A program made the translations under genes and the position numbers. Below the pieces are notes generated by a model, which saw nothing but the letters and a program-made list of their open reading frames with translations, made no database searches and had not been told where the DNA came from. Below, piece by piece: positions 17,296 to 60,960 of a stretch of 64,000 bases of DNA. The stretch covers positions 22,907,000 to 22,970,999 of the forward strand of contig JAVTVX010000013.1 of the NCBI GenBank assembly GCA_033439265.1, written 5' to 3'. Origin of the DNA: Dillenia suffruticosa (lineage: Eukaryota; Streptophyta; Magnoliopsida; Dilleniales; Dilleniaceae). Each line of letters begins with the position of its first letter. The first letter of the stretch is position 1.

Positions 17296-17299
17296 CCCT

Positions 17300-20141: not shown

Positions 20142-20142
20142 C

Positions 20143-20150
20143 TATATATA
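20143..20150 (+). promoter_or_regulatory. TATA-like box
   Basis: TATATATA followed within about 20 bases by CAGGGCACATTCCC and a GC-rich leader-like segment (GCCGGCGGCGTCAGTCAGC). It looks like a promoter, but the TRIM element begins 80 bases later and no coding exon follows until the kinase pseudogene 2.5 kb downstream. Confidence 0.3.
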
Positions 20151-20231
20151 CAGGGCACATTCCCATTCAAGGGAGCAGCACGAAAGGGCAGCATTAGCCG
20201 GCGGCGTCAGTCAGCGGCAGGGCTCAAAATT

Positions 20232-20712: not shown

Positions 20713-20717
20713 AAATT

Positions 20718-23473: not shown

Positions 23474-24558
23474 GTGGGGGGTGATTTACTGGTGTGATAC
23501 TTTTTACATTGATGAATGTACAGCATGCGTTCAAGATTTAACCCATGTTAGAAAAGCCTTTCACATTAAAATACTGCATTTACTGTCGCATGAGATCTGA
23601 TGATATTGAAAAGCATATGATACAACCTTGATCAATAAGCTTTAAAGTTATCAGAGTCTAATTAGAAATATTTTTATTCTTGATTGCTTTGGGACTGCGA
23701 GTGTTACTTTTTAATTTCATCACTATAATGTTTGACTATAGTTTTGGCTTTTGCTGAACTTAAGTACCTTGGACTCATGAATCTAAACCTGGATTTACTG
23801 GTTGGTGGTCATGCCTTTTCTGTTTTGACTAGATGATAAACACACACTCATGATGTCAACTTTTGTGTTCCTGTGAAGATTTGAGGATTACATCTCTGTG
23901 CCCAATTATCTGACTACTGTTGAAATCGCGCTTATGTAATCATAATTTTGGTCCAAGAATAGTAGAATGAAGGCCCCACGTAAATTTTTTCTCTGAAGCT
24001 GATTTTGATTTTATCAGTTGAGATCAAAATGTGATTCTCAAAAGAGAGATGCTCTCGAGAGCTAAATTTCCTTTGATAAAGATGTCTATCAAGTGTTACT
24101 TTGAAAAGTTAAAAAACATATAACATTAATAATGTTGTTGTTCCTCTATGAATTTGTATTACATCGTATCTCTCAAATTTTGAATTTACACTAAGCTATA
24201 TAGGTAATATATGGGGTCGAAATTTCTTCCCAAGTTCTTCCCCAGAAAATTAAGCTTAAAAAAAAACGTGTAGACTCCGCTGTTTCTTTTGTCATTTTCT
24301 TCGCTTTAGCTTACCAAAAGAGGTGGAAACCTAATCAAAACATTCACACTGAAAGTACAAGTGACCTGCTAGGGTTTCCTTTTGCCTTTTTTGTCCTCTA
24401 TCATGTCTTCACTGAGCTCACCTGGTTCATTTTTGTTTTTTGTGTGTGTGTTTGTGTGTTTTAAAATTTAAGATTTTTTTTCTTTCCTTTTTTGGTTTTC
24501 AGAAACAGGGGTTGGGTCTGGAAAAATAAATTTTTTGAAGTTTCGGGACCTTGTACAA

Positions 24559-27335: not shown

Positions 27336-27342
27336 TGAACCT

Positions 27343-37300: not shown

Positions 37301-40247
37301 TTAAAGTAAATCGTGAAATAACTTTTGAAGGAAAAAAGGAGAATAAGCCCAAAAGTCTCTCATTATCTCTTTCCCATGAATAATATTGACCAAAGTAAAC
37401 TCTAAGACATATTATTTTTCATTGCCAAAATAATCTCTCAAAATACATTAATGGTGTTTTCGGATGATTTTTTATTTTGTATTATTGTATTTATAATTTT
37501 TTAAAAAAAATATATATTTACCATAGTAAATTAAATTTGTCATTATGTCAACAACTTTAACATGGGAAGCCCCACACGATCTGTATTTTATTCAACCACT
37601 GTTTGTCCCGAACATCACAATTGTTTGGTCCAACCAATCACAATCTAGGATTTTACACTTTTTCAGGTTTGAATTGGGAGGGAACACATGTGCCCTCTCA
37701 TCCTCACTCTCACTCTTACCCCAAGAGTCAAAAAGCATATAGAGTGCGATGAAGTGGTGAGATGGGATAAATAGTGTTGACAGTGTGGTGAATGGTATGA
37801 TTAAGAGGCAACACAATGACTATCCCACTCTCCCAAAAGTCCCCCAAGTTTCTTTGCAGTTCAGATGTTTGAATTTTTCGATCCCGCTTCTACTCTCCCG
37901 GTGGCCCCCCAAACCAACTCATTTACTTACACTTCAGAGTCAAACTTATGTCTAACAATTTAATGCCCTAACTCATTAGTATTTCTTTAATGGGGGAGTG
38001 TGGTTTCCACACCTGAAGAGCGCTTATGCAACTCTCTCATGTATTAGGAAAATGTGTTCTGGGTTTTACAGTTTTACGAGAAAATTGTATTTCTTTACGT
38101 ATTGAAGAAATAGGAGAGTGATACGTTCAGTAAGAAAACATTTACCAAGCATTTTTGTAATATTATTTAGTAAAAGAGTCGTCCAATTAATTAAAAAAGG
38201 ACCAATGTGCCCAACAGCATTCATATTTGGTCAAACATGTTTGCAATGCTTTTTATTAAATTTATACATGACCTGACCTTCCAACTAGCTTCTCCGCCCG
38301 CATTTATTAAGCTTACCATATACAGTCTATGTAAATATTATTGTTCATCCCTTATAAAATATTTAATTAAAATAATACTTAATATTTTCTTTATTATTTT
38401 TTTGGCAATTTTGTTACTATTTGAAATGGGAGGCACTTTTTCACACGTAAGACCGGCGGGGGGGGGGGGGGGAGTGTGAACTGTTAACCTTTTGAACTGA
38501 AAATAGGCGAGACCCCACCTTCCCCCGACCTATCAGATCGAGCAGGTCTGCTACGTAGGCTTGCATTCAAGTTTGCTGCAACGGAAGACACACCAACCGA
38601 CCCCGAGAGTGAGTGTGAGACGAGTGGATGAAGCCATGCATTGACACGAGCGTGCCACCAACAACACACGCAAGCTGCTCTCTAAGATTGCTCCTCTTAT
38701 CAAATTCTTTTAAAATAAATAATAAGACACTTTATCTTTTTAATAAGAGATTTTAAATTCAAACACTAAGAATAACGAAAAATGATTTTGAAAGTCAATA
38801 TCTAAAATAGAGCTTACAGTGCTTGATTTAGATTAATTGAACAAGATTCAGATATCGATAATAAAAATAAAAAAAAAAAAGATTGATCCTCTCTCTCTAT
38901 CGAAAGTAATATAATAATAATATAGGACTCGAATTAATAATAAATTTTCCAACATGCTATTTAATAGTTCTTGTATGACATTTAATTCGTTGTTTTCATC
39001 ATGAAATAACAATAAGAATGCTCCATTTAATGTATTTAGGTAGGGAAAAGTTCTGAAGTTTAAATAATAAAAGTGGAATGTTTGATTGTCTACTTTGAGC
39101 AAGGAGCCATTACTTTGGATCCCACTCTTCGAACAACTTACTGCATCCATTAGCATTTTCTTCTTTCTCATTATGATCCACCACACTATATTTAATCTAA
39201 TTTTAAGTTTAAGTTTTATCGTCTTCCCCTTTTTTGGGGTCCCCTGCTAGATAGAGAGAGAAAAGAAAGAGAGAGAGAGAGAGAGAGAGAGTGCCCGCAA
39301 AGATTCAAGACACTTGACATTGTTGATGTGGGTGGAAGAGAATGCCATATTTCTCAATACCTTCTTTATTTTTAGAAAATATGATATTTTCACAGATTAG
39401 GTTTAATGATAAGCATATTTGTAATTGACTGCAATTCTTATTCTTTATCATTCATATAATAAACAAATTTTAATATTTTTTTGTCAGCATAAGCATGTGT
39501 CAGTATTATTCACAATTTTAATATTTTGTATTATTTAATCATTTTCATTTCCCTCCTTTCATCACCAGAGATCTCACTGACCTCCGATTTTGAAGATTAC
39601 GGGGGCCAACCCCCCGGGGGCCGGGGTTTACACACCATTAATCAAATTGGCCGACAAAATATTCTCTGCACAAATTGGCCGCCGACACCATCATTTGCCT
39701 TCTCCAATTAATTATATTAAAGTTGAAATTTTTATAAATCTATTAATATGAAATAATGAATACGATAATAAATTTATTAGTTTTTGAAAAAAATATATTT
39801 TAAAAGTTTTAGTTAAAAATATTATAAATAAAATAAGATAAAATATGAATCAATTACCATTTTCTTTTCCCAAAACTCCAGCAAAAACCAATTATAATCA
39901 GGAAAAAGATTTCAAAGTTGAAATTGCAGCCAATTGAAAAATATCTGCAGCTTTTGCATTTAGTAAAATTAAAGAAAAAAAAAAGAAAGAAGAAATTTTA
40001 GCTGACTTTATTTTATGGGTACAATACCGTACTATATACTATGCTAGTGCTTGGAAAATAACCAAGGAAAGGAAAGCCACATCCAATCCAACTTCATGGG
40101 ATGAGAAATTTCCTTACTAAGTTTTTATATATATATTTTTCCCATTTTACTTATTTATTTTGATTTCTCTCTCATTCAATTGTACTGGAAAGTGGTACAT
40201 CACACCATTAACCCAGAGACACGTTGTGTCGGGAGATAATTAATAAA

Positions 40248-40278
<31 letters not shown>

Positions 40279-43008
40279 TTTTTCTGAAAAAAAGATATTG
40301 AAATTTGTCTTACATGAAAGAATCCTGAAAATCAATTCGGACCCTATGCTCCTTACAATTGTGGAAGATTGCGAGACAAAAGAAATAAAAAAAAAAAAAA
40401 AAATGCCAAAACAATATTTTCAAGCTTGCAAAAATGGGGTCGTACTGTAACTCCTCGAAATGGTGCTATATAGACGACAAAGATGGAAATCCTTGCAAAT
40501 ACTCTATATTAAATTTAAAGAGGAAGGTGGGGAAATGGTGAAAAATTATGAAATATACCGCACCATTATCTTGCAAAATAGTTGTAAAGTTTTTTCTCAT
40601 TTGAACATTTTGTGTATATTTTAAAAAATAATTTTTATTAATTATATTTTAACATAAAATCATGTATAGGACACATTTGGACAGATCTTCCCGTTAGGTT
40701 TATTTTTTGAAACAGATCTAACCATACAAATGGAAGAGATGCTAAAAGAAAATGAAAATGAACAATTTCAACAATAATACGTTAATCTGAATGTGTGAAT
40801 AATAAAAAATTTTCAAAATTATCATAATAAAAATTATCACAGCATGAGAATCATCACCCATTGCCCATCGATGGGGCGCAGGACCCCATGGCACATTGCA
40901 CATGCTACGCAATGCTATTATTATATTTTTGTCCACAAATTTTGGTTGCCCACAGAATTCTTTTTTTATTATTAATATATAAGGACATTCGAACTAAAAA
41001 CCTTTACAGGAAAAAAAAGGACAACACCAATTGATATATAATTCATTCATCTTTTTGACGGAATATCCTAATTTGTATCTGGGAATAACCAAATACCTAA
41101 ACTAAATGATATTTTCCAAATTTGTGCTCTCTCTCAACATTCAACAATTCCATCAAGTGGATAATTTTTTTTTTTTATAATAATTTAAATCTAGAATTAT
41201 CAGGTTGGAAAAAGAAAATTTATACCACTAGGCTATTTCTTTGGGAATATCAAGTGAGTAATGTTATGACACACTTTAATCAAGTGCAGTGTCGGTATGT
41301 AAGACTGGTATATGACCAACTACCGCACTAACCAACCTAACTACCTTTCATAATTTTAGCTTTAAAAGGGCCTAAAGTAGTTGCCTTGCAAAAGCTAGGG
41401 AACATAAGGGTACAAACTGCAGTGGTGGCCTCTATGGGGTCATGATGTTTGATCCAAATAACTACATCGCAACCACATTACTCCCTCCGCCCTCCATTAT
41501 GCATGATGAATCATAAATCAATTGCTTTGTTTTGCACCCCAAAAATTTTGAAGACCCTCCACTCACGTGGAAAGCACGTGTTAGGATTAGCAACTTGCGG
41601 ACTATGATATACGTACACATTTCACTCACTAGTTCTTATTAAGATAACAGTCCGAGTCAACCTGAATACAACTAGGCAAATGAAGTGTGCAAGTAACATA
41701 TCCCAGATACTGAAAACCTGCAATATGGGATTGGCTCGAAACTCGTGAAAAGCCCTCCATGTTCTTTTTCACGTACTGGACTCTTGAAGTCACCATGTTG
41801 AGCACTAACATGGTAAAACACCAACCTCGTTAGATTCAAAGTGTAGTCTCACACAAGGACCATCTACCCTCCAACTGTAATGAAACCAAATGGAGATGCA
41901 TGACTTCACAAACAATTGCCCCTGGGTTTAGAAAGTGCATGAGCAAAAATTACCTCGCACACTTTAAAAAAAACACACACACACACAATGCACACACGTG
42001 GGCAGGCTCACCTTAAGATTAGCATCAACTTTTGAGGAATGTTATTCCTGTGATGCATCCTCCTGATTTCCTTCCCTAAGACGCCTCTTTTGGGAGTGTG
42101 AATTTCAACTCCGCAACTAGGGCATCTTAACATCAACTTCCAAACTGAGGCTTTTGATATTGCCTTAAGCTGCAAAGACAGCGCAAGTTCTATTGTTTCT
42201 CCTTTGTGGGACAATATTCCACTTTTCAGGTCAATTACTTTACGGACGAACTCTACATGATCTTTCAACTTCAGTTCATTACAGAAGCATCTGATGCTAA
42301 GGTCCTCTATAAGCAAAATATTAAGGACTTCATGTACATCTCAGCATTATAGAACAAGTACGAAACATGATTTTTACGGTCAGGTAAATACAGTGAAAGA
42401 ACTGGAGGGGGTATTGCAACCTTTCTTCTGCTTCTCAGCTGAGTTTGAAAATCGAAGTCAGCAATTATGGAAGTGACTTCTGTAGCATGCTGCAGATGTA
42501 ACACTTCTCTGCAAATAGTATGAGACAGTGCACCATCTGAGAGTGATTGTATCTGATTCTTCTAGAAATTCTTAAAAGATCTATAAAAACCGAATGCCTG
42601 GTTAATATAGTTCATTTTTGCTTTCACAGAGCGAAAGAAAATGCATCCAACATGGCTCAATAGGTTCATACAGAGCAGCCCTCAAAACTTCGTTGGATGC
42701 ATGTATAAATGTCAGATGACATAGTGAAGGCAACTGCAATAAGAGAAAGGCACAAAAAATGGTTCTCAGTTGTTTGCAGAGACAGGATTTTATACCTACA
42801 AATGTCAAAGAGCATCCCTCTAACGACAATTCATGTTTGCAGTTGTTAGATGATCATGTTATGTCTTAGTGTCGGCATCAATCGAAAGAAATGGCAACTG
42901 AAGACAGATTTCACGGTAGAATTTGAAAACACCTTTGGCTTACCTGTTTATAAGATTGTAGCATCTGGTGAAACATATGTGCTGTTATACCAGAGTCTTC
43001 ACATTCAG
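34385..43008. other. Expansin promoter, then long spacer
   Basis: 34.39-34.7 kb is the presumed expansin promoter and CT/GA-rich leader. The rest has no recognised gene. It includes a CATA/CATG-rich tract at 35558-35610, a poly(T) at 36096-36118, (GA)n at 39262-39292, (AT)n at 40249-40270, a poly(G) at 38457-38472 and a GC-rich block at 39600-39625. 38.5-38.67 kb is GC-richer without a recognisable product. 42.0-42.9 kb flanks the RNR1 remnant and holds an open minus-strand frame (42008-42316) without a domain. Confidence 0.45.
36747..36782. repeat. Hexanucleotide repeat (ACCTCG)6
   Basis: Six perfect tandem units. The ORF crossing it reads as alternating Ser-Thr and is not considered coding. 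Confidence 0.95.
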
Positions 43009-46000
43009 CTAAACAACCTCCTTCTGGGCAAGACCATCTTCGCATCGATGAGTTTCTTCCACCTGAAAATCAATCTCATCTCCTATCTGTACTCCCACAA
43101 ACACCCAAGCAGAAGCCTGCTATCCTACCTGTAAGGTTTCAAATTATATTTCCATTATGTTTTGAGCTTGTATTTGTGTACTTGAATTAAGCACAAAACG
43201 AGAGATATATCATTTATATCCAGCTCTGATTTGTATAAATGAACCTTAAGTGGGAATGCATGGTTTCCTAAGTTTTGGGATTGAGAGTGGTTATCTGACC
43301 ACAAAAATTAGAGTCAGTGCAAAATATATTAAGCAAGAAGCAAAAAGGGATTAAAAAGAAAAAAACACAACCGTTAAAAATGACCCATATAGAAACTTCA
43401 AAATTTCCCCACACACACACATACTAGGGGAGCTTCCTTCCACTGAGTAATGAAAGACTAGACAGACAAGTGGCCTCACATATCCAAATAAATATAATAA
43501 AAAAAAGTCATGAAAAAACCATAAGAGAATATATAAAGAAATACAAACCTTAGCTAGCAATCAGGAAAGGGAAAGGAGAATATTCATTTGCAGAGAAGTT
43601 AGGAAATTCCTTGATATATTGGTGGCGTAAGATTTTAGAATTCTGGACATTTCTTTTTGTCTAAGAATTTTGGACATTTTGGAGTCTTATGTTGATGGAC
43701 TGCTGTATTAGTTTGCATATTTTATATGTATGTCTCATGATGTCCACTCAATATCCTTACTCAAATTCCACCCAATCATCTTCCTCACCCAATGCTGACA
43801 AATCTTTCAAAAGTTTGTACTCACCACATCCACTCAAGTTAATAGCCTGAACATTACTCTATTCTCCATATAAGTCAAACTTGATATATCTTCATATTAA
43901 ACATGTCCAACACCCCAACACACAAACAACAATACAGATAAGTTTATCTAATTCTTTAAAGTAAGACTTTATATTAATGTAGTTAAGAAAACTAAATAAA
44001 AATTGAATCCATGCAGGGTAAAGACAGGCTATCTCATTATTTCATTGAAAGAGAGTATAGTAGGGGATCAAAACTGCAACACCAAGAATTATCAAGAGAT
44101 CTGTAATCCATACTGGACCGATGATCATGCAGGTCGAAGTGGAAAGGGACAATATCTTATGGAATTGGGAAGAAATGGATCACTTGCCAGGTGTCTCTAC
44201 AATTCAAGAATAAAATATACTCATGCTTGAGGACAACAAGTTCTCAACAAGATTTCCCTAGTATTGCAACCTCAAACCATCCCTTGCATGCCTTTGAGCA
44301 TGAACTTAGAGCCATGAAACAACTAACCACTCAAAAGCTTAAGCTAAATAGAGAAGTACATTTATTTTTGTATATCTTAACAAAACCTCTCACAGATGAG
44401 CTGATGATCAACAAGAAACAGAAGAAAATATTAGATGGTGTTCAATGAGCTTTGCAATGCACTTGGGATCTCCTCCTTCAATACCACGTGAAAGAACCAA
44501 TTGGTTCAAAAGCTTGAGTTGATGGAAAGAGATACTTATAATTTGATTTCACAGAGCTTTAACATGAGAAATTATAATTCATGTTCTCTCTTAGAAATTG
44601 CAATAGAATGGCAAATTTCTCATTTCATCTGTGCTTACACCCAGGAGCAATAATGCTGCAGTAGGATATTTGATATATCTAAGAACCAATGCACGAAACC
44701 TCTTTCCTTTTGGCTGTCTTCTTAGAAATTCTAATATCCAATACTTAAGACTGCAGCTGAAGAGCCTTTTTGCCACTCGAGCGTTCATGTTGACTGATGA
44801 GGCAATGCCTTCCAGCAGACCAGCTGTAAAACGAGGAGAATCACCCCTGAGAAAAGCCTTCACCTGCAGTTAAATGTCTTGATATTTAGGGAGTACTTTC
44901 TAATCACCTCCCCTCTTCCAACTATATACAGATGCAGCAGATAGCAACTACCAATAAGTTTTTGTCATCAATAAGGGAAAGAATTTCGTGAAAGAATCCA
45001 AGTTCGCATCTGTACCCATATCAGAGATAATGAAGTGCTAACTTGCCTACCACCAGCTTCTTGGTCAAGCAGTAGCAAGGCCCTCAAAATCCTGATCAAG
45101 ATTGCTACCACCCCCCCGCCCCCCCCAAAGAAAAAAGAGACAAGAAATCACCTCCTTCCTGTAAATAATATGTAAGAAATATATTTGAATAGGAATAGGA
45201 AAACAGGGAGGGAATGTAATTATGCCCATGAAGAAAGAGACAGAGCAAAATTGTTGTCAGCAGTAGAAAGAAGGCAATGAATTCCAACAGTGGACACAAT
45301 CAGCTTAGATACATAAAAGCCTTGAAACTTCTCACCCACACTCTCAGGTCATTATTTAACACGGGGATTACCAGAAAAGGCCCAAATACCTTACCATGAG
45401 CCGTTGCTGGTTATATAAAAATGGCAAACAGAAAACACTGCCTGTGGCATAATGCTAATGAGATATATTGCCAGAAGCTGGAAGAGACATTTCTGATGTA
45501 AAATCTCAATTAACTTTACCTACCTAAGAACTATTGTAGAAAAGTGAAGGATTAAAAACAGAACCTCCATCAACAAACTAACAAAATGTTTAAATTGATG
45601 GCAAAATACTAATTTTTCACATGTTATCTGTTTTTTGTCTAATGTGAAGGAGACTCTCACATTCCATTTTTTTATCTTTCGGAATTATGTTGCCTCCTCA
45701 AGAAGAGAAGGGTCCGCCATCTCTACAGCTCTATATTATGCAGCCAACTGGTAATGTCATTTTAAAATCCATCTTAAAAATGAAAATACATTCTTCAAAG
45801 TCAACTTTTACAAGCTAATTACGCTTGCCTTTTAGAGAAAAGATATAATTGCAGGCAGAACAGATCTTTAATTTGGTGTATTAACTCTGATCTGTAAAAC
45901 CTTGATCAACAGCCATGAAAGTACTAACCTGGTAGTGAGCAAGAAAATCCATGCAACTGCGGATAGGGGATGTAAATTGAACATAACCAGGAAGCCCAAG

Positions 46001-49000
46001 GACCCGATGTCTTACAGGTTTCTTGAAATCTATTTCAGCAGCACGCATTATTCTAACATAAGCAGAGCCCCTAACAGGTCCTTCTGGAAGATAAGCGAAC
46101 AAAGACGCATCTACATGTGATTGGAGCTGTCCTCTGTAGGATAAAGGAATATTATTGTAAGAACCAAAAGTCGCTAAAACTTCACCGCACAATACCATCA
46201 TCTCATAGACAAGCCGCATTGCAGGATCTGCCTGGTTTTCTACATACAGACTGATTGATGGCTCTGGATCATCTGGATTGGCCACCTCGATGCGCGTTTC
46301 CAAATCAGCTGTATCAATAGCACCCTACAGAAGATGATATGCTTGAACTTAAGTCTTAAACTGTGTTACAAAAATTAAAAGATAATCCTGTTAAATGCTT
46401 TTAAAAGAAAATTCATGCAGATTGTTTTGCATTCATATAAGAAATACATCAGGAGAACTCACTTTAAAAGAGACCAAGTAGCATAAGAGACAATATAGTA
46501 TACATTGAAATCAAATTGAGATATCAAGGACCTAGTAACCCAGAACAATTCCCTCGGGATTCTTCAGGCACTATTTTTGCTGCCTCCCTTTATTGGTAGA
46601 GGTAAAAATGAAAGTCACAAATAAAGTCAACCAAGACATCTTAACAAAGACTTAAATCACCTATTAGAAATAAATCAGGTTTGGCAGTGACAGAACTTTT
46701 CCCCATCTGGCTTCAAGTAAGGCCATACTTCATTCAACAGATTATGAATCGTCAAGTCATTCTTTACAGATCTACTCTATCCTATGTTCACTTGCATCTA
46801 CCTGCGATAAATGCATAAAGATATTTCTATAAAGATGATAAGTCTCTTTTACAGTCCATGTGCCCAAATCATTCAAGATTTTGTTGTTGACTTTGGTAAG
46901 ACCAAAGATAGATATAATATAGAAGGATACGCCATGGACAAGTTTATGGTGTCTTTGGCCAGAGAGACACACAAGAATTTTTCAAGGAACAGTCAACAGG
47001 AGAATCTCTTCTCCAGGAAAAAATAGTGCACTTGGCAATGTAATGTGTATAATGAATGCAGCTTTTAAAGGTTATAGGGATTGGAAAGCTTTTATGGATA
47101 TCTTCTCCCATCCTTTGGTGTATGTTCTTTTTTTTACAAAATGTTCCACATTTTTATTGCAACCATAATCCTTAAGTTAATCAGAAGAAAATCATTCACA
47201 ATTTTGGACAAACAAACTAGCCCACAGCAAATTGCTAGAGCCTATCCCAGATGGGCCTAGAAACATTGCAACAAGGAATAAGCAAACTCCGAACACACTA
47301 TTACTCTTCCACATGGCAAACTTTAGGAGAGAGAACTGTGAGACACTATTTAAAAGCAATAGATCATCAGTCTTATTTCTCAGAAATCATGGAGTAAGTC
47401 TTTCTTAAAGGTGTGGTTCCTTTGTATGGGGTGTCGATATCGCTGATATTTTTGGATCCTGCTTTTCGTCCAGTTGGTGTTCTTTTCTTGTAATACAATT
47501 ATTTAAGTTACAAAAGAAGATTGACCCAACAAATGACAAAATTGGGTATAACCCTCTTTTGACATGTAATAGAAAGCTAACCTGTTGACGACACCATTGT
47601 AACCGAAAAGTTACAGCCTCCGTGAGAACTTCCAGTTCAACCTCCTCTTCTAGATTCAAGTGAATCAACACGGATGCACTCTCATATGTCAACATATAGG
47701 TTGGTTTGATGATTGAATTATCTATTGTGTATTCTGTAATGCTAAAACAACAAAACATGGTTTGAAATTGGCTCCAGAAGAAGATTATTCTCAGCAACCT
47801 TCAATATGCACAAATATAGTGCACAAGAGGGGTGAGAAATTTAAACTAATGCATAATGGTCCAAAAGTTCTATTAAAATGGATTATGTGTGCCAGGATTT
47901 CAAGACTGTCTATCAGTTTGACTTTAAACTAACCATAATATGAAATACAGATTCAAGCAACTACAACCCAACTAATTTGGGACTTTAGGCTTAGTGCACA
48001 AAGTCATCATGGCTTCTGATTGTAATTAACTATAGACAGTTTAATTCTGAGCCAACATTTTGAAATAGTTCCATCAGTAAGTACAAACTCGAATCTCTAA
48101 ATAACTCTTTAAGCTTAAATGACCAAACAAAATCAAGAGCACACTAAATAGCTGAAATGAAAAGCTTTAGACTTCATCAAGAAACGAACAATTGATTTAC
48201 ACGCAAGACATACTTGTGTAAAATATATATAAATATATCATATTTAATCAAAGGTTAGGTAATTGCCTAAACTCTACTGATTTAACGTACCTCACAAAGG
48301 AGAGTATAATCTAAAATTGGCATATATCATCCCCACTTTAAGTCTCAGGCTCTCAGCAGTCCAAACAATAACTAAGCTCATGCAAATTTTAACTCCAGCT
48401 GTCCAGTGTTTGTGCAATAGACCAGTTATTTGACTCAAAATATTGTTTGAATTGACTTCTAATCTTGCCAATTCCCAGAATTACACCACCTGATCATCAC
48501 CAAATGTCATTTATCTTTGGCACTTTAATAATGGATAAATGAAAACTTTTGGGCATGGTGACATCCTGGAAATTGTAGGACTGAAAAACAATTCAGGATA
48601 TGCTCCCTCTGCATGAAGGAAACAGTGTTATTTTTATTGCCTTCTGAAACTGTTCAAAGTGTATGTGAATATAGACCATGTAAAATTATCCTTTTAATGT
48701 TACCTATAAAAACCTAATGCAGACCATGATTGAGGATGCCATTAAAAGTGTATTTTGTCATAAAGATAAACCAAGTCATAGTCAGGCATGCATTGCATCA
48801 CCTCACAACAAGTGAAGTGAAACATACTCGAGATAGCATGCCAAGAGTGGAAGGCACTGATCATTCCAGGGTTACCTGGCAGCCAAGAAGTATCCGAACC
48901 CATTCTAAGCCCCTAACGTCTTTGATTCCTTATGAATGGTAATCTAGAACTAATCTTTCTTTTAGGCCAAAAGACAGGGAGATTGAAATAATGGACTACA

Positions 49001-50030
49001 ATAGTGGTTCTAACCTACTTAATTTTCTAATGGGGAGAACAAGCTTTGAGTTTAGGGCTTTAAAGAATATATCAGTAACTTCACCTTCCTTAGGTTTGAT
49101 ATACTCCACAAAGGGAAGATTAGCAGGAGTTTTCATTTCATTCGTTGTGGCTCAAGAACTTTAAGACCCAGCTAAAAGATTTTTAAAAGTACGTAAATCC
49201 TATACTTGCAAAAAAAAAAAAAAAATGTACCTTCCATCAGTCTGAAGTACCCCAGACATTATAACAGCCTTGCAAATTTTTCCTTGTTTCAAGCTCATCC
49301 CCTCAATTGCAAGCTTCTCAGGAAACATGGGGTAAGGTGGTAGGCAAGAAGAGTGAAGTTCCTCTTCTCATTGCCCCTCTACAAAAAAAAGGACACATTG
49401 TTAATACCGAGAACATACTTTAGATCCATATGACCCACGGTATCTAAATTTTACCTATCCATTCTGCTCCCAGGCTGAATAAGGCAGGATGGATTGGCAA
49501 CATGTATCCAAACTTTAATCCAGCCATCCTGCATTAGCATATGAGCAGGCTTGATGAATGTGACGAGATGAAATCACAGCAGATTACAACATTGAAAAAG
49601 GTTCCCAAAATGTGTGAACTGGATCCAAGAAGAACCATTCCTCATCAGCCTCATCTACATCGATGGCATACACCTTCAAATGAGTAAGGTCCTTTCTGTC
49701 TATCTAAACAGAGCAAACAATTAGTAAAGGTTACACTGATGCCACATTGAAAATATATATATGCAAAATATTCCCAATCTTGTGATGGCGAAAAAGAGAA
49801 ATGTTATCCCATTCTACGTTCTTCACTAACCATTCCTTCAGGGACCATACGGACAACCATGTGGGCAACAACAACAGCCACAATAATAATGACATATAAG
49901 TGAAAATCCTGACATTAAAACCAACCATAATAAAGCCAACACAAAACTTGTGCAAAATGTATTGATGCTTACATGTTGTCTAACAACAAGGATATTAAGG
50001 AGATGCATGAGTATGCATACATTCATGCAC
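43009..50030 (-). pseudogene. RNR1: RNase II (RNR1-like) catalytic and C-terminal half, broken
   Basis: On the minus strand, blocks run in family order. 49698-49620: DLTHLKVYAIDVDEADE. ~49540-49455: [15 protein letters not shown] ... SRMDR. 49378-49231: RRGTSLFLPTT, then YPMFPEKLAIEGMSLKQG in another frame. 47741-47582: ITEYTIDNSIIKPTYMLTYE. 46324-45929: GAIDTADLETRIEV ... GLPGYVQFTSPIR. 44863-44641: VKAFLRGDSPRFTAGLLEGI ... KYWILEFLRRQ. 43128-43009: S1-like tail QASAWVFVGVQIGDEIDF. Lesions: loss of ~50 bp carrying the catalytic LDDGLSATR segment; a 2-base deletion after FLPTT; SPIRSCMDF where the family has SPIRRYMDL; TAG for Phe in the GFQA motif. Several splice borders remain. It would have been an organellar 3'-5' exoribonuclease; it cannot be functional. 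Confidence 0.85.
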
Positions 50031-50738
50031 ATTAAGTGCATGAGTATGAAATCAATTGAAACCAAGCCTAAAGTGCACTGTGTGGCGATCGTCCCTGAAA
50101 TCAAAGTTGCCTGAACTATGTGAGGTGGCAATTTCTAACATCTATAAGTCGTATAGCATTCAAATCAATCGATATTGCCCCCTATAAGTCCAATTTACAA
50201 GATCATTAACCAAGAAAAGTGGGGAAGATAGACCGGAGTAAGCGTGAGATATCCCAAGAAGACTGAACTATGTGAACTCGCGATCTCCCCTCAAATAGGA
50301 GCAATGCACACCATCAACCCTGAGAACGCATGTCCTGCATTTGAGAATCTGTCAGATTCGACAATGTATACAGTTTGTATCTCAAATTAGTTGTACAAGT
50401 TATGTCGTACTGGTTGCCTCTCTGGATGGAACATCAACAAGAAGAAAGAACAAAGAAAATAAGAGATGCTCCAAATCATAATCTACTTGTTAAGGATGAT
50501 TTTTGTGTTTCTTTTAGTAAGCTTCGCACGAGTGCAAATTTGTATGAAGTTACCATCCACTCTCATCTTATTGACACCTCAAAAGACCACAAGAGGTTCC
50601 ATTGAAAACACTAGATATCCCGGAACAAATTTGGTTCAAGAAGAGTTGCCAATTTTCACAAGACAGAAAGGAAGGGGGGGGGGGGAGGAGGAGGAGGACA
50701 AGAAGAAGAAGAAGAAAGTTGAGCAGAACTCACTGTGC

Positions 50739-50788
50739 AGGGTGCAGGGTGCAGTGTGCAGGGTGCAGGGTGCAGTGTGCAGGCTGCT
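50739..50788. repeat. Heptamer minisatellite GTGCAGG/GTGCAGT
   Basis: About seven units of GTGCAGG or GTGCAGT in a higher-order 14/21-base pattern, within the rhomboid remnant. Nearby are a poly(G) run (50675-50685) and a (AAG)n tract. Repetitive ORFs over it are artefacts. Confidence 0.9.
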
Positions 50789-50799
50789 TGCAGCTCCAT

Positions 50800-52194
50800 C
50801 TCTTTGTGGACAGTGATCATTTCCATTAACCCCTTTGAAGAGCATAATTCGGCCAACTGCATACCTATCAAAGTTAGAAACCAAAGCAGCTGATTCAGAG
50901 ATTATGTTAAACTGCTAGGTAAATCGCATATAGGCACATACGCATGATTAAATAAGCTAGCCTTTTGTTTTGACATAAGCAGTGCATGGTATACAAATTC
51001 TCAGAATGCATTCTGTTGACCGAGTGACCCAAGTCGCACGAAACAGACAGATTAACACTCGAGGAACTACTGAGCCCCTAATATCTTAATTTCTTCCCAC
51101 ACAGCAAAGAGAACAAGTACACTTGTACGCTCCAAGTAAAACTTAAGTTACCAGACAAACAAACAGACCTTTTTCAATGGCAACAGCAGTGAAGAAGGGA
51201 CTGATACACCACATGTCAGATATCATGCACATACCAAAGAGAACAAATAGAACAGACTTATGGCTGTCATAGAATTGCTGGGCATGAATAATACGGTTCT
51301 TTATTCAAAGGCTACAATAGATAAGAAACTTTGGGAGGATGTTTTGTTTCAATTATCTTCATAGAGGGTTCTATTTTACCATGTGCCACACTTATATACC
51401 TTAAGATAGAAGCTAGACAGATTAAAAAAGCATTTCAAGTCTCTCACTAAGAGATGATTTAACCTTCATAATGGTTATTGTCATTTAAGCTATGTGCTAT
51501 TAAGCTACTATACTAATTTAGTCATATGCTTCTTTTCTTCTGCTACAACATTCTGCTTTTTGGTCAAAGGCAACTTGTGATTTACTCTTCAATCATGTGC
51601 ATATTGATTGTATGATGATCTCCATGATCTGATATTGGTGGTCATGAAAGGAGCAGCTTTAGCATATAGAACAAAACTAGTCAAAGGCTTACCCAACTAT
51701 TAGAAGAATCAAAGAGATGGACCACAGGACATACTGATAAGACTTGAATTTAGATCAAACTGGTGCAGAAGCATCACCGGACTGTGTGTATCTCTGGGCA
51801 ACCCACTTAAACTGGGGACAAATAACAAACACAAAGCCAAGTAGAAATTCAGACACTAGTCCTCAAATATGAGCAAAGATGTCCACATTAGGAAAAATAC
51901 CAATAGCTAAGTTGGTTACAATGATGATGAGGAAGGTCGCGAGAAATCCCACCAAAACATAGATGCATAGATGCATCATACATGTAGATCATCATTGGAC
52001 CTAGAATATTACCGACCAGACAGTAAATAACTCATCTTCATAAATATCTGTCGATATTTATTAAATGCTGTTATCATAGCTCATTAGCATATATCGTCCA
52101 ATTTGTAATGAGTTCAGAGAGCATGGCCCCAAGTAATCCAAAAACAGCACCAGAAGAACCAACAGAAGTCGCAGTCTGATTGAATAGGCCAGCA
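50800..52194 (-). pseudogene. Rhomboid-like serine protease, 3' half, broken
   Basis: Minus strand, from 52194: [37 protein letters not shown] is the catalytic-Ser helix (family GASG, here GSSG). From ~51940: TNLAIGIFPNVDIFAHI then TGA where the family continues GGF, so the catalytic-His helix is interrupted just after its His. FLLGFVFVICPQFKWV follows, a second stop, then SYQYVLWSISLILLIVG with a donor-like GTAAG near 51685. Near 50870-50810: YAVGRIMLFKGVNGNDHC, the last-exon motif of plant RBL1/RBL2-type rhomboids. These intramembrane proteases have six to seven membrane spans, and the 5' half is absent. The fragment begins within the intron donor region of an RNR1 copy. Motifs are seen directly; the family name is from recall. 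Confidence 0.8.
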
Positions 52195-53062
52195 GTATCT
52201 AAATTATACCTATCTATTCTGCTCCCAGGCTGAACAAGGCTGGATGGATCTGCAACATGTATCCAAACTTTAATCCGTCCATCCTGCATCCTTGTTGCAC
52301 TTAAGCATCATCAAGCTGCAACCTTTCCACCAATTAGCATGCGAGCAGGCTTGAGGCATTTACAAGAGATGAAATCACAGCAGATTATAACATTGAAAAA
52401 GGATCCCAAAATGTGTGAACCTCCAAGAAGCACCATATCTCATCAGCCTCATCTACATTGATGGCATACACCTTCAAATGAGTAAGGTCCTTTCTGCCTG
52501 TCTAAACAGAGCAAACAATTAGTAAAGTCTACACTGATGCCACAATGAAAAAAATTTTAAGCAAAAAATTCCCAATCATGTGAAGGTGATGAAGAGAAAT
52601 GTTAATACATTCTAAGTTCTTCACCAACCATTTTTTCTGGAGCCATATGGACAACCACATGGGCAACAGCAGCAGCCACAATAATAATGACATATAAGTG
52701 AAAATCCTGACATTTAAACGTACAATAATAAAGCCAACACAAAACTTGTGCAAAATGTATTGACACTAACAAACCTGTTATCTAACAACAAGGACATATA
52801 TATTTATTGTTTTGGTACAATCTAACAACAAGGATATTGGGGAAATGCATGTGTATGCATATATTTATGCAGATGAAGCACTAATATTTGAAGAACCAAA
52901 GACGAGAGGTCAAGTCAAGAGGTCCAACAGTGATAGATGCAAATAATCTTTTAAACTCCTCTAGCAAAACACCTCTAGGATATGTTGGATGTGCATCCAT
53001 GTCAAAATAAATAGCAACAATTATGACCCTCACAAAACAAGGCTAAGATGATCTTGGCATGA
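52195..53062 (-). pseudogene. RNR1: Second partial RNR1-like copy (catalytic exons)
   Basis: Duplicate of 49.44-50.03 kb. 52497-52420 encodes DLTHLKVYAINVDEADE (acidic Asp changed to Asn). The next exon holds CTTGATGATG then CTTAAGTGCAACAAGGATG: LDD followed by a 1-base deletion before [25 protein letters not shown] follows, then SRIDR and a GT donor. The intron carries on for ~14 bases and joins rhomboid sequence at ~52195. The upstream part (52650-53062) matches the left-edge copy at 2389-2720 in inverted orientation. The distinct lesions show it was broken independently of the 49.5 kb copy. Confidence 0.8.
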
Positions 53063-53587
53063 TTAAAAGAAAGCTCAGATAGTCATAAAATGAATCTCTT
53101 TAAGAGTAATTAGCAAAATAAATTGGCTTACTTAGCAATTACAATTGTCAATTATCCAAGAATCAAGTGCTTATATATATATAATTAGTTTTCACATGTA
53201 AAACTCAGTTGGTATGCTACACACTTGTACCTTTTGGTCATTCCATCAAAATCCACCCCTATAATCGACATAAAAATGCCATCAAAAAAATCAATATAAA
53301 ATCATAAAAAATAAAGTAGAGACAAATTTATATGATTTGCCCAATATGCTTAAATCCTCGGGCACACAGAAAACATGATTTCACTATATCAAACAATAGA
53401 TATAAAACATGTAGAGATAACAACAAAAATATTACCTAATACCAAAAAGAGGATTCATGAAAAACCTACAAAAACCTTACCAGGGAAACCCAAAACATAA
53501 TCTCCAAAACTCAGTAGAGAATCTGAATTATTATGTTGACGCCAGTTATGCAGTTTTCAGACATTATTATAAAAGATAACACATGAT

Positions 53588-53880
53588 AAAACCAACCCAG
53601 TGCATTTCTTCCCAAAAAAAAAAAAAAAAAAAAAAACTGAAAGAAAGGTGTTTTTAGGGACTGACGCTAAGACCCATATACCGGCAACAAGATGAACAGC
53701 CCCACAAAACAATCCACAAAAAATTCCCACCACTTGCCTCATCCAGTGTGACGTGTTTCCCAATTGATCCTTCAAAGTTGTCCAAAAAATTAAATTCAAT
53801 TGAATGAAATCCATCAAAATTTATGAAACCGAGAGAGAGAGAGAGAGAGAGGAATTAATTACCTTGTCCCAATCAATAGC
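53588..53880 (-). pseudogene. RAB5IF fragment (end of exon 1, intron 1, exon 2)
   Basis: It matches 59003-59277 of the intact RAB5IF gene. On the minus strand it has TGGGACAAG with its GT donor, intron 1 including a (CT)n tract, exon 2 encoding DQLGNTSHWMRQVVGIFCGL ... AVHLVAGIWVLA with donor GTCAGT, then the start of intron 2 with its A-rich tract. Exons 3-4 and the N-terminus are missing. Its upstream end is joined to RNR1-like intron and exon sequence. Confidence 0.85.
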
Positions 53881-54410
53881 ACCCTACAGAAGATGATATG
53901 CTTGAACTTAAGTCTTAAACTGCGTTACAAAAATTAAAAGATAATCCTGTTAAATGCTTTTAAAAGAAAAATAATGCAGATTGTTTTGCAGCATTCATAT
54001 AAGAAAAACATTAGGAGATCGCAGTTTAAAAGAGACCATCAATTTCACTACAATCCAAAATAATTAATTAACCATATAAAAAATCATCAGCATTGTGTTT
54101 TTCACAACAACCAGCCAAATTATCTTGAGCTTTTTTAATAAACTCAGATTTCTGTATGATCAAAATTTTCTACACCAGGAACAATGCATCTGATTTGCTG
54201 TGGCTTGATGGAGGATGTGATGCCATTCTGCTTCCGAAAAGCGACAAGAGAAGAGGAAAAATGTAACCAGAAAAAGAAGAGTCAGCAAAATCCAACTGAC
54301 CAGAATTTGAGAAAAAACACAAAATATGAATTGCAACACCTAGTAACCTATTTAAAATGCCACATTATTAGTTTCAACCAGAATCTACGAAACTGTGACA
54401 CATTTAGCAG
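53869..54410 (-). pseudogene. RNR1: Third RNR1-like piece (5' exon block plus a distant intron)
   Basis: 54227-54117 (minus) encodes NGITSSIKPQQIRCIVPGVE, NFDHTEI, then a 2-base deletion giving TGA where the family continues SEF. The upstream intron (54230-54410) matches the left copy at 612-770. Bases 54035-53872 match the intron before the GAIDTADLETR exon (46480-46318), so everything between those two introns was lost. The first 12 exon bases (GGTGCTATTGAT) then join RAB5IF sequence. Confidence 0.85.
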
Positions 54411-56326
54411 GTTCACACAGGCCTAAAGCATTGGCATTGGTATATATTATTCTGACAAATAAATAAATAATCCAAATTATCCCCAAAATCATGTCAAAAC
54501 CCTAAAATCAAACTGGGTGAAGACTAATTCTCCAAGACATTACAAAAATTCAAGAAACCAAATCTTTAATCGACCTTTTTGACATTCAAACAATAACCAA
54601 CAAATAACTCATATTCAATTAGAAAAACAAAATTAAAAAGAAAAGAAAACGAACGAAGAAAACAAACTTGGTAGTTGTATTGATTCATTTTCGTTTTCGC
54701 AGAAAGTCGAGCTCTTCCAAGACGCTGTCGAGGATGCTGTGAATCTACGAAGGTTTTAGAGAGAGAGAGACAGAGGGTGGTTTGAAGATAAAAACCCAAA
54801 TCTTGAAAGTGTTTGAAGGTTTCAGATAGAGAGTGGGGGGAGGTTTGAAGATAAAAATCCAAATCTTGGAAGTGTTTGGGTAATGGAACCATGGGAGGGC
54901 TATGACCTATGAGAGACGTTCCGTTTTTTAAGGAGTGACCGCGTGGATAAATTACCTCATTTGCCCCTCCGTGTAACGGTCATATCGTTGCACACATTCT
55001 TATGTTTCTATCTGATATTCCATTTAAATTTTGACTATTATTTGTTATATATTCATTCATTCAATTATATATCTAAAACAAGTAGATACAAAACTAGTAT
55101 CAGTAATAGCTTGACATGGGCTACCATCTAAGTCAATAATCAAGTAAATTATGATTATCCTTTGTTATTTTAAGAGAAATACTATTATACTAAAGAAATT
55201 TTCATTAATTAATATCTCTATTTTTTTATAAAAATTTTAATAACAGATCAAGTGAAATCTTTATTTTATACTATCAAAACCAATGAATTTAAAACTTCAA
55301 AAAAACAAAAAATGAGCCCTTTTTTTTTATAAAAAAAAAAAAAAAAAAAAAAAAAAGGAGGAGCCATTTCTGCCAAATTTTGACATCCACTATTCATCTA
55401 ATTGCACTATTTGAGAAATGGCAAATAGATTAAAATTCCCGTAGTATCCTTTTTTTTTTTCTCCCCCAACCACAATTTAGATCCTAGAAAAGTTAAAATT
55501 TCTCGCAAAAGAAAATTTTATATTTTATGTTATTCATTACAAATATTTTCTTGAATACTAATAATACGATAGAATTAAGAGTAAAACTTGTAGAAATGTC
55601 ATTTATAGGTCATGATGTGCATCATTAGATAGGGCTTCATGTGTAAAACTTGTAAACATTATCTTCATTTTTATAATATTTTTCACTTACTCCGATTCCT
55701 TCTGGTGTATGAAATCAAAGGGTTGGGTGGTAAAAAGCATTATGCTGTTAAACATGGTAGAGAAATTGAGACCCCTATCCCAGCACGTCACACCGGTTCA
55801 TACATCAATGCGCCTCATCATCAATGCTCGTTGCCTTGGAACTCGGTTTCATTTAGTAAAATAAGACTCTGTTTGTTTAGTAAGCAAAAGTGAATTCGTT
55901 TAAATCGAGGTTGAACTCGAGGTATGAAATTTATACCTGCAGGGAACACCACAGGAGCAATTGTAATATCAGGTCCAAATACATGAAATCAGAGCAGCAA
56001 TGGAAAAATACAAGCAAAATCACCAATTTTCCTCTGGGCAACCAGTAATATTGTTTTTGGGGGGGGGGGGGGAAATTATCATCCCCGCATTACAACAACA
56101 AACAACTGTTTAAAATTACAAAAACAGTCCTGATAAGTTACAACTTATGCATCTCCGGAAGATGGGAATAGGTAACGATGGCATCAGGCATGCTTATTCT
56201 ATGATGACAAGGTGTAATATGTTGGGCACACTTGACTGAAACCCATGAGCAAACAGGAATCATTTGGGATATAGAAAGGCAAGAGCAGCAGGGGAGTCCG
56301 TTGCAGTTTTAGCAACATCTAGTCAA
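54411..56326. other. Spacer with a leader-like block at 54.6-54.9 kb
   Basis: A ~45 bp motif (TTTGAAGATAAAAA(C/T)CCAAA) is tandemly repeated at 54781-54826 and 54843-54885 next to a (GA)n tract. On the minus strand it precedes AAAATGAATCAATACAACTA, possibly an exon 1 of unknown identity fused to the RNR1 piece. 55-56.3 kb is AT-rich with poly(A) at 55328-55356, poly(G) at 56060-56071 and no recognised gene. The last ~300 bases are RAB5IF 3' flank. Confidence 0.4.
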
Positions 56327-59300
56327 TCAGAAATGTGCTAAGCTGTATGCTAGGATCCAACAAAGCTGCAATAAGATATCTCAGCTATTATAAGATGCAC
56401 CTTGGACAAGTAAATATAAGTGTTAACGTTGAGCACCAGCGGTGAAGATTAAACAACGTAAGCATTACCAGAAAAAGAGTTAAAGAAGCAAAAAGCCCTT
56501 CTTGAAGGAGTGCACCGTGACCGCCAAAATCCTCTTCATCTACCTTGAGTATCAGGGAGTAGTACCCATATATTATTCCGGATGATAATGCTAGGAACCT
56601 GGAAGCCAGAATTTAAGAAGCACATCAGACCTTTTTTCTCGGACCATATCCTAAAAGCATTATAAAGCATTTTTACCAGCCACACTAAAATTTGGATCAA
56701 CTCATTCACCTTTTAGACACAACTGGTGAGATGATAATTGTGCCTGGCAATTTCTTTAACATTACTATTGAAAAAGGCTTATAAGAACCACAGGACCGAT
56801 CACATTATTCTGGAGTGGGGTGTCTAACCCCAGGCTAAAGTTTTACACCCATGATGAACCACTGGAAACCAACTTGCTCTTCCACTTTGAGGTGTGTTCA
56901 AGCAAACAGAATTATCAATGGATATAAGCATAAAAGAAACATATCATTGGTCAGTTAAATTATACATTGAGATGACTCTCTGTCCACTGCCTCTAGATTT
57001 TGGGGTTACACCAAATAATATCCACGGCAGATTAAAATCCATATATAAAAGTGTTCTTTATCATTGACTCAACTGGCACTCAGGGCTTTACGTTTTAGAA
57101 AATTCTTCATCACATTGCATGATAGCGAATAATCTATGTATTGCCATCACCATCGGTAGTTCTGTGGATGGTTAGTTGAGTATACAAAGATTTATTTGAC
57201 AAAATTTGAAAGGCCTAATAACACATGATACCCAACATATGCACAGCAGGAAAAGCATAATGGGGCCATAATACAAGAAGTGGGAGAACTTGTGAGCAGA
57301 AAAGGTAATAATTTTTAGGCTCCTGTTGCTTAATGGAAAATGTGGTTCTTGAAAATATCCGAATCATCTTTTCCATGTTCATGTGCTGAAAGGATGAATT
57401 GGTTTAAGAGAATATGTTCCACAACCTGGAAAAAAATATAATGTTCTTTTACATGCATTTTCTTTTTTGTTTCTAAGGGGTGAGGGGAAGGGTTTGGAAC
57501 AAACTGCATAGGATAATAGAGTATAATTGAAGAACATTGCAAGAAACAAATATTGGTAGTTTAAGTTTATTTTTCTCTTTTCGGTGGTTCTCTCTCTCTG
57601 TCTATCCATTCTTCCTACTCTTTTTTCCTACCTCATTCCTTACCCAATTATATGTGCGCCCCATTTGCAAGTGTTTTCCTGGGAAGGTAAGAGCTAAGAA
57701 TTTGTTTTTGTCATGTAAAGTCCAATCACCAGCAGGAGAGAAGGAATTCAGGACTGGTAGGGTGGATGGACCAGTGATGGCATAGTCTTGACCAACAAAC
57801 AGCCTACAGCTCCTAGTCCTATTACTACGACACCAACAAATATAGAGTGATAGAGGTAGAAAAAGAAACTGATTCATCATCTATGACATTGACCTATCCT
57901 ATGGTTCTGAATTAACAGATTTAAAAATGCCAATGACTCTTGGATCTAGGGGTACCAAATGCTCTTCTCTCCTGAGGTCTCGAGTGCGAGCCCCTATCCT
58001 CCCTCCCAAGATGATGCCCTCCTTTGTAGCTGGGGGAAAAAGAAAATCTATCTAAAATAAGTGAACTTTTCTTGCTGTATAACTCTATCAGTCAAAAAGA
58101 CTCAGGCATCTATGGTGAAAAGTACACAAATGTACCACCGTAGGGATAAAAAGCAAACCACAAAATCCTGCACCATTTGAGAAGGCTGACTTTTGTACAG
58201 GTATAGTAACTGAAAAATATATATCCTAATCATCCCTAATATTCTTTGAATTGTAATCTCCTCCCAATACATTGCATTTGCTCCTACAAATGCATGTCAC
58301 CATAGTAAAAGGGTCAGTGGTGTATTCCAAGGTTAGTATCCAAAAAGGGGCAAAACTGCCACATACTTATAGCCACGGGTGCTTTGGGACTCACAAATAA
58401 ATACAAACACAACGGTGCAGAGCGCAGCATGCTTTGCAGTTGGATAAAGCAAGCATAAAACGTACTGTCTGGTGCTCATAGTTCCACTTCTCCATCCTTG
58501 CCATCCCAAATGACAATGTGGCGTGACACTTACGATCCCTCACCCGCCCTCCAACGAAAAAGAAACAACAGACACAGAATAATAATATAAACCAAATGCA
58601 TCTAGTAGCCAACAAACATTGGGTCTTTAAAACTGTATAGATGTGTAGTCTCCTTCTTAGCATCGTTCAGTCATTTAGGAACTTGCACTACATTGCTCTT
58701 ACCTATAAATTATGTACGAGGAGAAAGAACATATTGCATTGTCAATTTCATAAGCAAACACGAATAACTTGATCAAAAACATCCAACAATTAGAGCAAAA
58801 GTTTGTGCAAGCATGGCATCTAGTTGAACCAGAACATGCTTGCTACATAAGCTTACCAAACAAAAATTAACTGAAGTATGTCTTTTAAGGTTAACAGCCG
58901 CTTTAGTTATCAAGATTATTAAATAACAATCGAGGGGATAAAAATCAAGCCGCACCAAAAATGAAGGAAGATCTATGAAGAATTAAGGCTTGACTATACG
59001 AATTAAGACCAACCCGGTGTATTTCAACCAAAAAAAAAAAAAGTGAAAGAAAGAAATGTGTTTTTAGGGACTTACGCTAAGACCCATATACCGCCAACGA
59101 GAGGAACAGCGCCACAAAACAATCCACAAAAAAGTCCCACCACTTGCCTAATCCAGTGCAATACGTCTCCCAATTGATCCTTCAAAGTTCCCAAAAAATT
59201 AAATTCAATTGAATGAAATCCATCAAAATTTACGGAAGAGAGAGAGAGAGAGAGAGGAATTAATTACCTTGTCCCAATCAGCTTCGGGATCGAACAATTT

Positions 59301-59384
59301 GGAGTAAGTAAAAGGAGAGGCGTTGTCGTTGTTTTGCAGTTGCTTGAGACTCGATTTGTAGTTTCCAGATTTCGATTCTTTCAT
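56327..59384 (-). CDS. RAB5IF/OPTI-like membrane protein (Rab5-interacting family)
   Basis: Exons 59384-59268, 59179-59076, 56598-56469 and 56365-56327 join in frame (GT..AG) to 129 residues, the plant family length. The N-terminus (MKESKSGNYKSSLKQLQNND, then FTYSKLFDPEADWDK) is cytosolic. DQLGDVLHWIRQVVGLFCGL leads into a first hydrophobic hairpin (~50-80, VPLVGGIWVLAFLALSSGII). YGYYSLILKVDEEDFGGHG is the signature loop, and LFASLTLFLLCWILAYSLAHF is the C-terminal span. Animal homologues (C20orf24/RAB5IF) act in the ER multipass translocon with TMCO1 and in respirasome assembly; the plant role is inferred. Intron 1 is only 88 bases with a CT tract; intron 2 is 2.5 kb. A broken copy of its 5' end lies 3 kb downstream. 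Confidence 0.92.
57926..58045 (+). mobile_element. Possible tRNA-derived SINE remnant
   Basis: Within RAB5IF intron 2. CTCCTGAGGTCTCGAGTGCG followed by AGCCCCTATCCTCCC resembles a degenerate pol III B box region (GGTTCGAnTCC, as in SINEs reading AGGTCTCGGGTTCGAGCCC). An A-box-like TCTTGGATCTAGGGGTACC lies ~45 bases upstream and an A-rich segment follows. No target duplication was found. Tentative. Confidence 0.35.
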
Positions 59385-60960
59385 ACTCGATTTCTGAATA
59401 AACACTGAAAATGATGGAAACAAGTGTTTGTTCGAAAGAAACTGCCCCTTGATTTTGTTCTTAACTTGAACAACAGGGTATACTAAGGCTAGGGTTATTC
59501 ACTGTTGATCGACGACACGCGGAAAACTTAGAACTGGAAAACTGAAAAAAGGCTAATTTTTTTAAGGATTTTGGAGATGTTAATGCAGATTGGAGGAATA
59601 ATTAAAAACTAATACTATTTAACTGTCATTAATAATAATAATAATAAAAAAGCTTTAGGATTAATCAAGTGAGGGCTCTACTCGGGTCTCGTGAAGGTCA
59701 AAATGATGGGGTGTCGTAGCCGTCGGATGGGAACGTCCCACTTTGGCTGGTGATGAGAACAAACACGAGAACACAGACCCAGAGAGAGATAGAGAGAGGT
59801 GCTGCGTGGTCGGACGGTCGATGATTACGGAGAGAGAGAGAGAGAGAGTGAGTGAGGTTGGGGTGGGGAAAGAAAGTACAAGTAGAAAGGTTCGAGTCCT
59901 TGATTCCCATTCCCTTGCATGTATGGGAATGGAAGACTTTTCTGTCGCTGACGCTGTCGCTGACGAAGGGTTGAAAGCTCCATCTCCTTCGGGAAGGAAT
60001 TTCCTTTCCCAATCAGAATCAGGGAAACTATGAAAGATGTGCGCCTTCTGCAAAGGTAATTATTGGCTGTCTGGTTTGATTTATTATTGTTTCATTTTTT
60101 AATTACATAAATTGAAAACTATATTATTAATAAATTTAGTTGTTGGATAACTTGATTTGAAGTATTTAATCAATTAGTTCACTTTATTTCATTTAAATAA
60201 TAAATATATTTCATATTTTATATTTAACTCAACTCGATTCATAAAATTAATATTTCAAATAATTCAATAAAATACTCATTTAGTAAGATTTTTTTTTTCG
60301 ATTTTTCTTCTACTTGTAAGAGAAGGAAACGAGTTTTTTTTTTTTTTTTTTTATAATAAGAGTGTTTGATTAATAACAATTAATAATCTTTTTTATTAAA
60401 TTTTATTACCCACAAAAAACGAGTATTTGATTAATAACAATGGGTAAGCTTTTTGTTTCTTTTTTCTTTAGAAATGTGAGAGTTTTTTTATGGTAAAAAA
60501 AGAGGTAATTCATGAAGAAAAAAGAGATAATGGCAAGAAAAGATTAGGAGAGAGTTTTCAAACACAATCAACAAAGTAAAGATATTGATTTTTTTTTTCC
60601 TGCTACTCAAACATTTTATTTACATATGAAGAATTTTTATTTTCGTGGCACTTCTCTACTCTAATATCAAGAAAAAAATAATTAAGTCATTCATTAACTT
60701 GATGTTACATCAAATTTCAGATAAAAATAGGATCAAAAGTCATAAATGAATTTTTACCATGAAAATTTGGATGTTTATTAAGGAATTGTATGGGGTCGGA
60801 GTGTGATGTGGTGACGTGGTGGGTCGGGTCTAGAAATAAACAGGATTAAACGGGGTCCAAGTTAGCTTCGCAAGTCCGAAGTAATAGGAAACGCGTGGAG
60901 GTGGACCCACGTTACAGAAAAATCTTCTTCAATCCTGTTCGATTCATTTTTGGCTTTCAA
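59385..60960. other. RAB5IF promoter side and AT-rich spacer
   Basis: Includes (AAT)n at 59629-59648 and a (GA)n tract at 59829-59847. ORFs near 59661-60053 occur in both strands; none has a recognisable domain and their pattern is shaped by GA repeats. 60.06-60.78 kb is very AT-rich. Confidence 0.45.

Follow-up and report, generated by a model that had tools for sequence, protein, structure and literature searches.

A split RNR1 pseudogene and locally copied gene pieces at the ends of an apparent inversion in a duplicated block of Dillenia suffruticosa

How did one strand of Dillenia suffruticosa DNA come to carry interleaved pieces of an RNase II-type gene, a rhomboid protease gene and RAB5IF within a few kilobases? 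The locus lies at positions 43009 to 54410 of the 64,000-nucleotide stretch analysed here (the window, C13:22907000-22970999), in an assembly of 596 Mb and 37 contigs. A first-pass annotation had named seven pieces, and all seven were observed in the order it gave, on the minus strand, with matches far beyond chance, as between window 49440-49995 and 52195-52797 (E 2e-173) and between 53587-53875 and 59004-59280 (E 1e-95). A genome search with 43009-54410 returned 36 matches, 11 of which were in a block on contig C35 or on C13 in or beside the window, while the other 25 were at most 255 bp long and 69-100% alike, many of them simple repeats. In this search no closer copy of the right-hand pieces was observed outside C13 and C35, and Rfam and tRNA scans of the window gave no matches.

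The C35 block (2.46-2.55 Mb) is a collinear duplicate of the C13 block with an RNR1-like gene, a rhomboid gene and RAB5IF, and was used as the reference map for the orientation and source of the C13 pieces. Whole-genome duplication is the most likely origin of the two blocks. Intact donors were searched for genome-wide, and RNR1, as we name this RNase II-type gene from its observed domain set, was found unbroken on C35. Thirteen exons (A-M), counted from the first that could be placed and hand-joined at GT-AG sites, encode 702 residues with a single terminal stop; the model excludes the transit-peptide exon or exons. The product carries the CSD-like, winged-helix, HTH and RNB domains of RNase II, with the RNB profile covered at positions 1-325 of 326. 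For the rhomboid gene, profile matches on C35 were observed at the domain level in three neighbouring stretches (profile positions 2-50, 43-133 and 94-141). An LTR retrotransposon (C35:2536001-2541615, LTRs of about 489 bp, 96.5% alike) was observed in an RNR1 intron, and a large direct repeat array with a unit of about 18 kb (C35:2551675-2605150) lies just past RNR1. RNB matches over the whole profile were also found at C20:6155168 and C17:5528188, in single open frames of 735 and 766 residues, respectively, and these loci are therefore without introns there.

Comparison with C35 placed the mosaic at one end of an inverted block. Window 9783-50039 runs parallel to C35 2493.7 to 2543.1 kb, interrupted by unmatched gaps and by the C35 LTR retrotransposon, while window 55365 to 63906 runs antiparallel to C35 2485.5 to 2461.3 kb and the RNR1 pieces on the left run antiparallel to C35 2548.6 to 2542.9 kb. 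A block of about 40 kb (window 9.8-50.0 kb) thus lies between flanks of opposite orientation, as judged against C35 only. Its body (9783..43008) is parallel to the plus strand of C35 from 2493732 to about 2530.5 kb, again with unmatched gaps; within it, at 22808-27322, blocks duplicated locally at a spacing of about 3-4 kb (71-76% alike) have C35 matches that are out of order. The RNR1 exons are divided between the two ends, A-F at the left and G-M at the right, the cut lying in intron F-G, where the left part stops at C35 2542923 and the right part at 2543082. The opposite-orientation RNR1 pieces occupy window 1-3596 and continue 2115 bp into the left flank, about 40 kb from the mosaic, and these matching pieces identify the mosaic as one end of an inversion. 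Since C13 is the contig with the broken genes, its order is probably the derived one. Further out the block order is still antiparallel, yet C13 22.897 Mb runs parallel to C35 2675 kb and C13 23.04-23.05 Mb to C35 2436-2446 kb (part of this second C13 block has a further match at C35 4.02 Mb). Changes of orientation are numerous in this region, which may therefore have been rearranged more than once. A candidate C13 join at 48602/48608 was rejected, as it reflects the LTR element in the C35 intron and not a break on C13.

At the left end, a first copy of the RNR1 5' region starts in the flank, 2115 bp before the window, and its tail occupies 1-53 (plus strand; C35 2546276-2546224, minus). A second 5' copy follows at 63-1029 (plus), with exon A, the end of exon B and exon C (C35 2547557-2546773, minus), and then part of exon E together with exon F at 1251..2706 (plus), ending at the intron F-G break (C35 2544731-2542923, minus). 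Intron pieces separated by unmatched gaps come next at 2705..3469 (plus; C35 2546126-2546074, 2545904-2545792 and 2545739-2545683, minus), followed by a downstream intron piece at 3469..3596 (plus; C35 2534538-2534409, minus) that is 83% identical to 47128-47005. The pieces from C35 2544731-2542923 and 2546126-2545683 may be resident. Window 175-431 holds 129-bp tandem units, 93% alike, derived from the end of the intron before exon A. The adjoining stretch, 3597..9782, had no match in the C35 block and belongs in part to a dispersed family on C31, C8 and C21 (about 64-79% alike); the tail of a basic open frame in it (5671-6096) had no Pfam match.

At the right end, the resident 3' part of RNR1, exons G-M and now a pseudogene, extends over 43009..50039 (minus) by its C35 match and by tblastn exons, and includes a first copy of exons G-H at 49.45-49.70 kb. 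A 7-bp filler (50040..50046), read from the join sequence, links it to the 3' half of the rhomboid gene at 50047..52188 (minus; C35 2489966-2487872, minus; Pfam Rhomboid), which we count as resident because it runs antiparallel and is collinear with RAB5IF, as in the C35 block. The rhomboid piece starts 50 bp inside the second C35 rhomboid-domain stretch. C35 2485.5-2487.9 kb had no match in the window. None of 33 rhomboid profile matches came from the window, and since the list misses the short remnant at 52.1 kb as well, it is by itself no proof of the loss of the 5' half. A second copy of RNR1 exons G-H follows at 52193..53085 (minus; C35 2542437-2543281), 81% identical to 49440-49995, and then a partly repeat-like stretch at 53086..53586, for which a source search gave only repeat-like matches (69-74% on C1, C17, C10 and C37).

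Next is a RAB5IF piece at 53587..53875 (minus), comprising the end of exon 1, intron 1, exon 2 and the start of intron 2, which is 87% identical to 59004-59280. It is followed by the end of RNR1 intron J-K with the first bases of exon K at 53872..54038 (minus; C35 2533700-2533866; 93% to 46313-46476), by exon B with flanking introns at 54033..54386 (minus; C35 2546900-2547250) and by a much altered RNR1 5' region at 54390..54978 (minus; C35 2547782 to about 2548608, in pieces). The resident flank with RAB5IF resumes at 55365..60273 (minus; C35 2485501 to 2480348, minus). The first-pass annotation had taken the neighbouring RAB5IF for an intact local donor; this putatively intact gene shows exon-like open frames with weak, single-exon Pfam EMC6 matches below the cut-off, from which we take it to be RAB5IF. 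An open frame with a Pfam YidD match (E 2e-20) was also observed further along this side, at 63284-63442 (minus).

Among the matches listed, parts of all 13 modelled RNR1 exons were recognisable in the flank and window, and several were present more than once: A-C have a second copy at the left, and the right end holds a further copy of B and two copies each of G and H. We count five copied-in pieces on the right and between two and four on the left, and the sources of all traced pieces fall within 67 kb (C35 2481.3-2548.6 kb) or its C13 counterpart. The three-gene mosaic by template switching or nested duplication and deletion that had been proposed for this locus fits the data in part: RNR1 exons G-M (43-50 kb) and the rhomboid 3' half in line with RAB5IF are resident, and the inserted patchwork is confined to 52.2-55 kb and some of the left end (0-3.6 kb). 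Capture of gene fragments by a transposon (Pack-MULE or Helitron) would produce fragments of several genes with introns kept and on one strand, as seen at 43-54 kb, but the assembled pieces have no second genomic copy, all sources are local and matching pieces sit at the other inversion end. A search of 48.5-56 kb gave 24 inverted pairs of 16-30 nt and no long terminal inverted repeat, which speaks against a Pack-MULE in particular, and we regard capture as very improbable.

The inserted pieces could also have made a working fusion gene. One open frame runs from RNR1 exon H through 17 bp of its intron and a 4-bp filler into the rhomboid exon with GxSG, matching Pfam Rhomboid above the cut-off (E 6e-6) and RNB below it (E 1e-5), and near 53.87 kb an RNR1 acceptor and a RAB5IF donor enclose 21 nt. 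The fused frame, however, stops shortly past the rhomboid exon, and the RNR1 parts are damaged: exons F and M contain stops, A, E and I are frameshifted, and SPIRRY, which we take to be a conserved active-site motif, is changed to SPIRSC. For exons G-M of C13 against C35 we obtained a dS of 0.19, a dN of 0.08 and a ratio of 0.42 (398 codons, two of them dropped for stops), an estimate inflated by the poor alignment of exon H; exons J, K and L alone gave 0.41. These values fit a C13 copy that has decayed neutrally for much of the period since the blocks parted, if C35 has been under ordinary constraint. The C13 RNR1 is a pseudogene, and a working fusion is hardly to be expected. From the sequence, RNR1 function appears to be left to C35, and we see no present function in the C13 locus.

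The joins were read base by base for the ten cases with both sides defined, in ungapped comparison; five further joins with one unmatched side (53085, 53587, 54978-55365, 1029-1251 and 3596) were left unscored. Microhomology was observed at six of the ten (1, 1, 1, 2, 4 and 6 bp), two of the 1-bp joins belonging to the 129-bp tandem units, and filler at the other four (3, 4, 7 and 9 bp). In 200,000 random joins drawn in the C35 block, the probability of at least 4 bp was 0.022 and that of at least 6 bp was 0.0026, so that 0.2 joins with at least 4 bp would be expected in ten, against two observed. The 12-mer around the 7-bp filler (50040..50046) recurs 33 bp upstream, a repetition found equally near by chance at 162 of 20,000 random window positions. 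The join data give modest support to the use of microhomology without proving a pathway.

The age of the copying was judged by dividing the distance between duplicate C13 pieces by their mean distance to C35. Seven sets gave ratios of 0.96, 1.04, 1.03, 1.08, 0.65, 1.15 and 0.75, of which the two low values have wide intervals, and the pooled ratio was 0.96 (0.85-1.09; 1808 columns) over six sets, two of which have columns from one copy in common; the left-end pair L1-L2 was not pooled. Also left out were a four-way subset of the middle piece, which is small, and 54390-54905 against its left counterpart, an alignment we doubt because the right copy is much altered (p-distance 0.21 to the left counterpart). 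The pooled value suggests that the bulk of the copying dates from roughly the time of the C13/C35 split, and that the copies are not recent assembly duplicates. The tandem units, at 93% identity, look younger, and together with the two low ratios they mean that the pieces need not share one age, as they would in chromoanasynthesis from a single event.

The first-pass annotation had raised the concern of an assembly chimera, and the closeness of several joins would fit such a chimera or collapsed haplotypes. The compared C13 copies are 5-21% apart, there are no N bases in the window or in the left 10 kb, and 25 of the 36 genome matches, those outside C13 and C35, are the short and partly simple-repeat ones noted above. 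With no closer copy elsewhere and joins that carry microhomology or filler, the concern is weakened if not removed, and we hold an artefact of this kind to be very unlikely.

A more serious alternative is stepwise decay, in which an inversion from staggered breaks, closed by end joining, was followed by separate insertions, tandem duplications and deletions without selection. About 160 bp (C35 2542923-2543082) are found at both inversion ends, as would be left by staggered breaks of the kind treated in passages of PMC3355041; the age ratios, which span 0.65-1.15 with broad intervals, and the 93% identity of the left-end tandem units are also what such a history would leave. It accounts less readily for the right end, where several separate pieces copied from one source block lie in a chain inside 3 kb, and the pooled ratio shows no spread of ages, though a spread is possible. 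We rate stepwise decay as a tenable reading, at somewhat less than even chances.

The explanation we consider probable is an inversion that broke RNR1 and the rhomboid side, followed by repair that copied nearby templates in around the two ends. On C13, which carries one of the two duplicate blocks, about 40 kb would have inverted fairly soon after these had parted, with one break in RNR1 intron F-G and the other beside the rhomboid gene. These two breaks would cut RNR1 into exons A-F on the left and G-M on the right. Repair would then have drawn on the 67-kb source region for inserts of about 0.1-0.9 kb, most of them taken from RNR1 and a single one from RAB5IF, and in its course the rhomboid gene would have lost its 5' half. 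The inversion and the insertions would thus belong together, and the likeliest route would be polymerase-driven end joining or template switching at a replication fork, with the ends held close together. Against templated repair, four of the ten joins are without microhomology, and fillers and short overlaps would also suit plain end joining.

Related events have been described in other organisms. In Drosophila mojavensis, inversions 2h and 2q arose from staggered breaks and carry inverted duplications at both breakpoints, according to passages of PMC3355041; likewise, single-copy C35 RNR1 DNA (2542923-2543082 and 2546.9-2548.6 kb) occurs at each end of the C13 block, the two copies facing opposite ways. 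Unlike what those passages describe for 2h and 2q, the right end on C13 adds several short pieces, one of them from another gene. Double-strand break repair in Arabidopsis involves templated insertions and microhomology, according to passages of PMC5217109, and the C13 joins resemble it in their short microhomology and filler, one filler having a copy nearby; the C13 inserts, in contrast to the templated insertions of those passages, reach several hundred bases and sit at an inversion. PMC9911071 also concerns Arabidopsis. Chromoanagenesis in poplar yields a mixture of microhomology, perfect and insertion joins in passages of PMC8423247, and shares with C13 the clustered local rearrangement, the duplicated and inverted fragments, and the microhomology and filler joins, whereas the poplar fragments given there range from 10 kb to megabases after irradiation and those on C13 are about 0.1-0.9 kb, old and natural.

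The kind of event is already known, and this case is a well preserved one. Among the literature matches listed for RNR1 cases and for inversion breakpoints in duplicate blocks, this locus was not recognised. Such blocks also carry a warning, as annotating them can yield false fusion genes. A bolder version, which we think doubtful, is that a single kilobase-scale replication catastrophe struck one duplicate block at roughly the time of the parting of the chromosomes, by polyploidy or a parental split, inverting 40 kb, copying at least seven local pieces in around both ends and deciding which RNR1 survived; if true, the locus would preserve, as a fossil that can be dated, template switching linked to the loss of a duplicate gene. 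Duplicate genes are usually thought to be lost through small mutations and deletions; here a duplicate gene would have been dismembered early by a complex local rearrangement. As most source pieces are recognisable and the unbroken duplicate serves as a map, steps of an old break and its repair may be read base by base.
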